A DNA stretch of 35,494 nt from a virus. This document shows, piece by piece, positions 28,432 to 29,294 of the stretch. Made by a program: the position numbers and the translations under genes. Below the pieces are notes generated by a model, which worked only from the letters and a program-made list of their open reading frames with translations, searched no databases and had not been told where the DNA came from. The first letter of the stretch is position 1. The number at the start of each line of letters is the position of its first letter. The stretch is taken from the IMG/VR virus record IMGVR_UViG_3300036859_000403, positions 1-35,494 of that record; one strand, given 5' to 3'.

Positions 28432-28962
28432 ATGACCGACGGCCGCACCGTCTGGCTGGCGAAGGACAGCGCCTGGTGGCGACGGGAGCGGATCGTGGAA
28501 CTCGGCGAACGGTTCGGCCCCGCCGGCCCGGCGGTCGTGGACTGGCTGGCGTGCGAAGCCAAGGCGCAGAACGACGGGGGAGAGGTGAAGGCCGGCTACC
28601 GGACGCTGGCGCGCGGCTGCTTCCTCAAGGACGCCAAGGAGGCCCAGCGGATCGTGGAGCACGCCGTCGAGATCGGCGCGCTCGACGAGCTCGAGGACAG
28701 CGGGAAGCGGACGTTCACCTGCCGCGTGTCCGGGTGGCACTCGGAGCAGGAGCGCGCTCGGAGCGCTGAAAGACAGGCCGCTTGGCGCGGTCGCGGCGTT
28801 ACGGACCGTTACGGCGTAACGGGCCGTAACGCCGCGTCACGCGCTGCAGAGAAATGTCCCCCTACAGGACAGGACAGAACAGTTAACTCAAGCCTTAGTT
28901 CTACTTCGGAGCCTAGTGCGCGCGCGAGCGTAGAACGGGGAGAGAGGGAGGAGGTCTCGTGA
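28432..28962 (+). CDS. Replication initiation protein, DnaD/Lin1244-like
   Basis: A 176-residue protein with an N-terminal winged-helix-like domain (WLAKDSAWWRRERIVELGER, FGPAGPAVVDWLACEAKAQN, GYRTLARGCFLKDAKEAQ) resembling the phage replisome-organiser/DnaD-type N domain. After residue 115 the chain is low complexity and rich in R, S and A, encoded by the repeat-dense DNA described separately. In lambda and related phages the initiator gene contains the origin. The gene ends in a GTGA overlap with the next gene. The family call is by pattern. Confidence 0.65.
   Translation: MTDGRTVWLAKDSAWWRRERIVELGERFGPAGPAVVDWLACEAKAQNDGGEVKAGYRTLARGCFLKDAKEAQRIVEHAVEIGALDELEDSGKRTFTCRVSGWHSEQERARSAERQAAWRGRGVTDRYGVTGRNAASRAAEKCPPTGQDRTVNSSLSSTSEPSARASVERGEREEVS
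28795..28912. other. Candidate phage replication origin (iterons plus AT-richer DNA)
   Basis: Bases 28795-28833 form a 39-bp near-perfect dyad made of two CGTTACGG-type elements and two inverted copies (CGTAACGG). It is followed by tandem ACAGG-type units at 28864-28882 and a stretch (28871-28910) of about 57% A+T with the palindrome AGTTAACT at 28881-28888, in a genome of clearly higher GC. All lie inside the replication initiator gene. Confidence 0.55.
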
Positions 28963-29294
28963 ATGGGTACGCGGTCCAGGACGCCTGGGTGAAGTACGCC
29001 CAGGAGCAGCGCGACAAGGACGGACGCCGACAGCAGGAGGCGTCCAGGCAGTGGGACGCCCGGTGGCACTCAGCCGGCGACTGGTGCGCCGAGCACCTGC
29101 CTGACCTCATCGACCGGACGACGGGCGTGTCGTGCGGGTTCGCCGTGGGCGCCGCGCTACGCCTGCGCAGCGAGCTCGGGCGCACGCCGACGGCGGATGA
29201 GGTGCGCCGCCGTCGCCGGGAGTGGATGCGCCGCCTCGACCTGGATCCGCGCAGCAACGTCCGGCCCGCGATGACCGCGGAACAGCTGCCGTGA
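28959..29294 (+). CDS. Hypothetical 111-residue replication-region protein
   Basis: Starts at GTG after GGGAGGAGG (28946-28954) in a 4-base overlap with the initiator gene. It is highly charged and helical (WVKYAQEQRDKDGRRQQEAS, VGAALRLRSELGRTPTADEV, then RRRREWMRRLDLDP). A helicase-loader role would fit the position, but no Walker motif is present, so none is claimed. Confidence 0.65.
   Translation: MNGYAVQDAWVKYAQEQRDKDGRRQQEASRQWDARWHSAGDWCAEHLPDLIDRTTGVSCGFAVGAALRLRSELGRTPTADEVRRRRREWMRRLDLDPRSNVRPAMTAEQLP

Follow-up and report, generated by a model that had tools for sequence, protein, structure and literature searches.

A probable replication origin inside a phage initiator gene

In phage lambda, the O protein opens an AT-rich stretch, which has nearly all of its purines on one strand, beside four inverted iterons (PMC5043065). 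The origin of phage Tuc2009 is reported to be experimentally defined and to be bound by Rep2009 (PMC8965321). The annotation of the Tuc2009 record places it within the rep gene (orf16), whose sequence contains GCAACCAA repeats followed by CACAGGATAGGATAGGAGAGG. In Bacillus subtilis, DnaD is recruited by, and binds, single strands that carry pairs of 5'-TnnT-3' (PMC10201434). Here we describe a site of comparable anatomy in the IMG/VR virus record IMGVR_UViG_3300036859_000403, analysed over its full 35,494 nucleotides (hereafter, the window). The site extends from position 28792 to approximately 28930 and lies inside the part of an initiator-like gene that encodes a predicted disordered tail. 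Judged from the sequence, it is very probably the replication origin of the phage, which appears to infect soil actinobacteria and to keep its origin hidden in the initiator gene.

The lambda-like plan that the earlier note had recognized in this gene is supported by the comparison with both mapped origins. As in gene O, four inverted-repeat iterons stand in front of an unstable stretch whose purines lie on one strand. However, the lambda iterons are 18–19 bp long, the opened region is AT-rich and not ACAGG-based, and no sequence homology was found between the window initiator and lambda O. Tuc2009 likewise has its origin in the initiator gene, with repeats followed by the pentameric purine-rich CACAGGATAGGATAGGAGAGG, which is nearly the CTACAGGACAGGACAG of the window; it differs in having its own iteron sequences, no GTTACG dyad, and an initiator with a Rep_Org_C domain, whereas the window protein has no C-terminal domain. 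The initiator gene of Pseudomonas phage phi297 and initiator genes of the DUF1376 type contain inverted GTGAC/GTCAC iterons and (GGGACA)n. Those genes belong to another initiator family (DUF1376), their tract is hexameric, and no mapped origin was found for them in this analysis. The DnaA-trios and the DnaD recognition element (DRE) of B. subtilis resemble the locus in placing double-stranded sites next to a strand-asymmetric single-strand element, but the window initiator is unrelated to DnaA and no DnaA boxes were identified.

The iteron dyad and the candidate unwinding element

The iteron dyad (28792..28836, assigned to neither strand) consists of four CGTTACGG-type units arranged as two inverted pairs. 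Its 22-nt arms (28792–28813 and 28815–28836), separated by a 1-nt spacer, are complementary at 21 of 22 positions; the 39-bp dyad of the earlier note is real and forms the core of this larger structure. It ranks as the strongest inverted repeat in the whole record. The best repeat with 22-nt arms in 60 dinucleotide shuffles of the record reached 18 matches as opposed to the 21 observed, and 21 matches were not obtained in any of 4000 synonymous recodings made from the initiator gene. Three of the four units are exact copies of CGTTACGG, the only ones in the record: unit 1 (28797..28804) and unit 2 (28807..28814) on the plus strand and unit 4 (28824..28831) on the minus strand. Unit 3 (28814..28821, minus strand) reads CGTTACGC, with one mismatch. 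A possible fifth half-site, GTCAC (28836..28840, plus strand), is found again 10 bp on, and GTCAC is the main unit of the relatives described below. The GT(N)AC cores (GTTAC, GTAAC or GTCAC) begin at 28798, 28808, 28816, 28826 and 28836, with spacings of 10, 8, 10 and 10 bp. The same iteron word is read in alternating codon frames, as Val-Thr (unit 1, frame 0) versus Arg-Tyr (unit 2, frame 1) or Arg-Asn. Each step of 10 bp shifts the codon frame, 10 not being divisible by 3, and the repetition therefore belongs to the DNA and is not a protein repeat.

Beyond the dyad, a conserved box, CCCCCT, precedes the tandem tract ACAGGACAGGACAGAACAG (28858..28882, plus strand; tract proper at 28864–28882), which is where the ACAGG-like units had been reported and which is common to the relatives and to unrelated phages. 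The AT-rich patch AGTTAACT adjoins the tract at 28881–28888, and TTAA comes directly after the tract. The candidate DNA-unwinding element (28863..28903, assigned to neither strand) includes AGTTAACT, and no other duplex of 40 bp in the record is less stable. The claim of an AT-rich patch holds in a strong form: for all lengths tested between 25 and 80 bp, the record-wide minimum of duplex stability falls at 28836–28930. The strongest inverted repeat of the record therefore adjoins its weakest duplex.

The coding strand of the candidate unwinding element carries ACAGGACAGGACAGAACAG and is purine-rich, and the two strands show the corresponding purine/pyrimidine asymmetry. The strand opposite the tract carries four TnnT motifs in the window and four to nine in the relatives, against none on the coding strand and a background of approximately 0.7–1.2 per 30 nt. 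The opened region would thus expose at least two 5'-TnnT-3' on one strand, as a DRE does, in what is a post hoc comparison. No TnnT enrichment was found in the (GGGACA)n phage group, and TnnT as a possible DnaD recognition signal was rejected as a general rule: the motif pattern is seen in the window family but not in those phages.

The initiator-like gene

The gene that contains the site (28432..28962, plus strand) encodes a protein of 176 amino acids and was assigned from its open reading frame (ORF), an AlphaFold2 model and homology to relatives with replication-initiator profiles. The model, built on six relatives, predicts a winged-helix domain at approximately residues 12–122 and a disordered tail at residues 124–176, with pLDDT of about 80–94 over most of residues 20–120 and below 50 from residue 124. 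As the dyad starts at codon 121, the candidate origin falls within the tail-coding portion of the gene, and the gene ends shortly after it.

The window protein matched no Pfam family, its sole PHROG match was weak (exonuclease, E 0.099), and no solved structure was hit when searched with the sequence. The relatives match profiles of DnaD-like helicase loaders, replisome organizers and O-like proteins, mostly through a C-terminal domain (L004 and L007 were scanned). This domain, which matches phrog_2514 in L004 and L007 (E 2.9e-11 and 6.2e-12), is an extra one present in L003 and L004, two Conexibacter genomes, and in L007, a further genome of the same class. The description of the gene as DnaD-like, made in the earlier note, accordingly holds for the C-terminal domain of the relatives but not for the window protein, which has neither that domain nor a Pfam match. 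In L020 and L054, which share the initiator N-domain, the gene directly next encodes a DnaB-type helicase. The next ORF in the window (28959–29294, 111 amino acids), an unassigned one, overlaps the initiator gene by 4 bases and could supply the function that the initiator is missing.

The closest relatives of the initiator (L003, L004 and L007) sit in Conexibacter-type genomes. In L003 and L004, two ORFs lie no more than a few kb from the initiator, one of them excisionase-type and AlpA-like, the other tyrosine-integrase-like. These loci may therefore not be full prophages but phage satellites or small integrative elements. Another locus (L055:2999-4475) encodes a fusion of the window-type N-domain with an HNH-nuclease-like stretch. 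Directly after it comes a different initiator-like gene, which has GCATGCG repeats of its own, as if the fusion were a remnant of a replaced initiator. A long ORF of repeated SATVRAYDSATVSAYGS units (L008:116-1501) lies immediately upstream of the initiator gene of L008.

Conservation among close relatives

Units of the form GT(T/G/C)AC at 10-bp spacing, followed by the tract or a variant of it, are kept in L003, L004, L007, L018 and L054, although the encoded protein differs. The box after the GTNAC units reads CCC(C/T)ACAGGACAGGACAG in the relatives. In L003 and L004, GTGAC/GTCAC replaces GTTAC, with both arms altered together and the 10-bp spacing mostly retained, and the repeats precede CCCC(C/T)ACAGGAGAGGACAGGACAG. 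Three GTCAC units 10 bp apart are found in L018; L007 has three direct GTCAC units and L054 two GTTACGCC units, in both cases as direct and not inverted repeats at the same spacing. The relatives have thus retained the units and their spacing, but neither the inverted order nor the protein sequence. To judge from L007 and L054, the plan does not depend on inversion of the repeats. L008 and L020 retain the initiator N-domain and the ACAGG tract but have different iterons (CGGGACA/TGTCCCG).

PTGQDRT is the usual reading of the tract among members of the window family, and PTG(Q/E)DR is conserved across close relatives, which could reflect conservation at the protein level; L018 reads the tract in another frame, as HRTGQDRT. 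Initial homology searches of viral contigs and named phages gave no matches, and in a pattern scan of approximately 400 genomes from the phylum, the tract turned up solely in the already known Conexibacter genome.

The tract in other phages

We assembled a blind set of 80 viral loci by protein homology to DUF1376-type initiators, with the tract ignored, and reduced it to 54 non-redundant loci. At a threshold of at least 16 of 18 matches at a period of 4–7, a tandem tract was present in 36 of the 54 initiators and in none of 162 control ORFs taken from those loci. Its anchor, GACAG, occurs in all three reading frames (20, 11 and 3 cases), the coding strand is without exception the one rich in purines, and the mean purine fraction is 0.85. 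In 38 of the 54 initiators, the tract outscores 95% of the gene's own synonymous recodings. Repeats are enriched in the 130 bp upstream of the tract (26/36 exceed the control 95th percentile), and TTAA directly follows the tract, as in the window, in 16 of 36 loci versus 0.8% at random. These counts are not fully independent because the loci are related.

Among named phages picked by protein homology, repeats followed by a tract are present in phi297, Magia, Ssp-JY42, Alderaan and pMLP1. In D14L and VvAW1, the tract is present and the repeats are less obvious; phage cdtI has repeats but lacks a clear purine tract. The initiator genes of Streptomyces phage Alderaan (L141:1700-1900) and Micromonospora phage pMLP1 (L142:1300-1460) have CTCAGTGAG-type repeats in common, together with a tandem tract of GGAACA, and these sites are likely to be unannotated origins. 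In Rhodobacter/Paracoccus-type phages, the tract is non-coding: it occupies an intergenic position downstream of a short DUF1376-like initiator gene and of CTGTAATC/CTGAAATC-type repeats. Paracoccus phage vB_PbeS_Pben1 has a gap of approximately 247 bp after its replication gene (L046:3112-3359) with repeats of this type and CCCTACAGGACAAGGACAAAACA; this gap, too, is a likely unannotated origin.

Evaluation of the origin and of alternative explanations

The identification of the site as an origin relies on the juxtaposition of the strongest inverted repeat of the record with its least stable duplex, on the iteron spacing, the conservation at the DNA level in the relatives, the frame independence of the tract and the blind set, and on the anatomy shared with the mapped origins of Tuc2009 and lambda. 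It also draws on the initiator profiles of the relatives and the position of L020 and L054 ahead of a DnaB-type helicase gene. Several observations weigh against it. The window tract taken alone is not significant, as 1730 of 20000 synonymous recodings score equally well, and its support is comparative, coming from the relatives. The window protein lacks the DnaD-like, helicase-loading C-terminal domain of those relatives. The plan is not universal: 18 of the 54 blind-set initiators fall below the tract threshold, and neither repeats nor tract are clear in Bacillus phage 022DV001 and Actinomyces phage LC001. GC skew, a check suggested in the earlier note, shows no clear switch along the record and carries no usable signal either way.

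The dyad might instead be an autoregulatory operator, bound within the gene by a dimeric repressor, possibly the winged-helix protein itself, with no origin at the site. Palindromic sites in 10-bp phase would suit a dimeric winged-helix protein, the absence of a helicase-loading domain points in the same direction, and the fold of the model matches mostly MarR/ArsR-type regulators, none of them at E <0.001. However, a search of viral folds lists several replication proteins among its weak matches, the site is deep within the gene, and no promoter-like sequence was found nearby. An operator would also leave unexplained the adjacent least stable duplex and the conservation of the tract behind different iteron types, and we regard it as very unlikely. 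It is even harder to credit that the dyad works at the RNA level, where a strong hairpin in the mRNA would cause attenuation or shield the transcript, although the RNA of 28786–28845 folds at -44.7 kcal/mol (z-score -6.6). The corresponding hairpin z-scores against shuffles are 0.5 in L007, -0.4 in L018 and -1.5 in L054, yet the 10-bp iterons persist in all three; the hairpin was rejected because the relatives lose it and keep the iterons. Matches to Rfam were generic hairpins far under the gathering scores, and a terminator was rejected as well, since a search of the plus strand gave no terminator-like site.

The repeats might also have no function as DNA and be a by-product of a low-complexity, disordered protein tail. 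Such a tail is what the region is predicted to encode, the repetitiveness of the window tract is within its synonymous null, and the PTG(Q/E)DR peptide is kept in close relatives. Against this, the dyad is beyond its own synonymous null, its units alternate between frames, and the tract occurs in several frames and in the non-coding DNA of other phages; the excess over synonymous recodings in most blind-set initiators is a further argument, and a by-product appears highly improbable. A different objection accepts the origin but has the tract work through an R-loop with a purine-rich transcript instead of unwinding and strand capture. The purine strand is indeed always the coding strand, and the tract is in the top 1% or better of locus 24-mers for R-loop proneness in 21 of 24 blind-set loci and in Tuc2009, L018, L020, L003 and L004. 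In the window, on the other hand, it is unexceptional (20.6% of 24-mers are more favourable), as it is in lambda and Pben1, and low duplex stability discriminates better. The proteobacterial tracts are consistent with R-loop formation as their principal function, but the window is not, and this reading was rejected; for the site described here we consider it unlikely.

Proposed mechanism and implications

For the probable origin at 28792 to approximately 28930, we infer the following sequence of events. The winged-helix domain of the initiator would bind the 10-bp-spaced GTTACG iterons, and the bound array would strain and open the neighbouring low-stability region formed by the AGTTAACT patch and the ACAGG repeats. 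Opening would expose a coding strand rich in purines and an opposite strand rich in pyrimidines, the latter with repeated TnnT motifs, and both would then be captured for strand-specific helicase loading. Capture of the tract by a DnaD-like protein through TnnT is a post hoc element of this scheme and may apply to the window family.

The candidate origin is ordinary in kind, and the evidence for it is strong for an analysis of sequence alone. Origins within initiator genes are already known, and the interesting part is the generalization, that is, the spread of the tract across distantly related phages. We tentatively propose, at somewhat less than even chances, that tailed phages of several bacterial phyla share a hidden plan in which rapidly changing, initiator-specific iterons are followed by a conserved purine-rich tandem tract of 5- to 7-bp units (ACAGG, GGGACA, GGAACA and similar) that ends in an AT patch. 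The tract would be recognized in its single-stranded form, irrespective of the iterons, which would make it the counterpart in phages of the DnaA-trios and the DRE, and it would constrain the DNA of the initiator gene in whichever frame it is read. The recurring low-complexity peptides PTGQDRTGQDR, GQGQGQ, TGTGTG and RDRDRD of phage initiators would then be closely similar DNA elements read in different frames. The locus provides a concrete origin candidate for an uncultured actinobacterial phage, and its signature, in which phased iterons precede a tandem tract of purines, readable in any frame, and then TTAA, could be used to find origins in many unmapped phage genomes.
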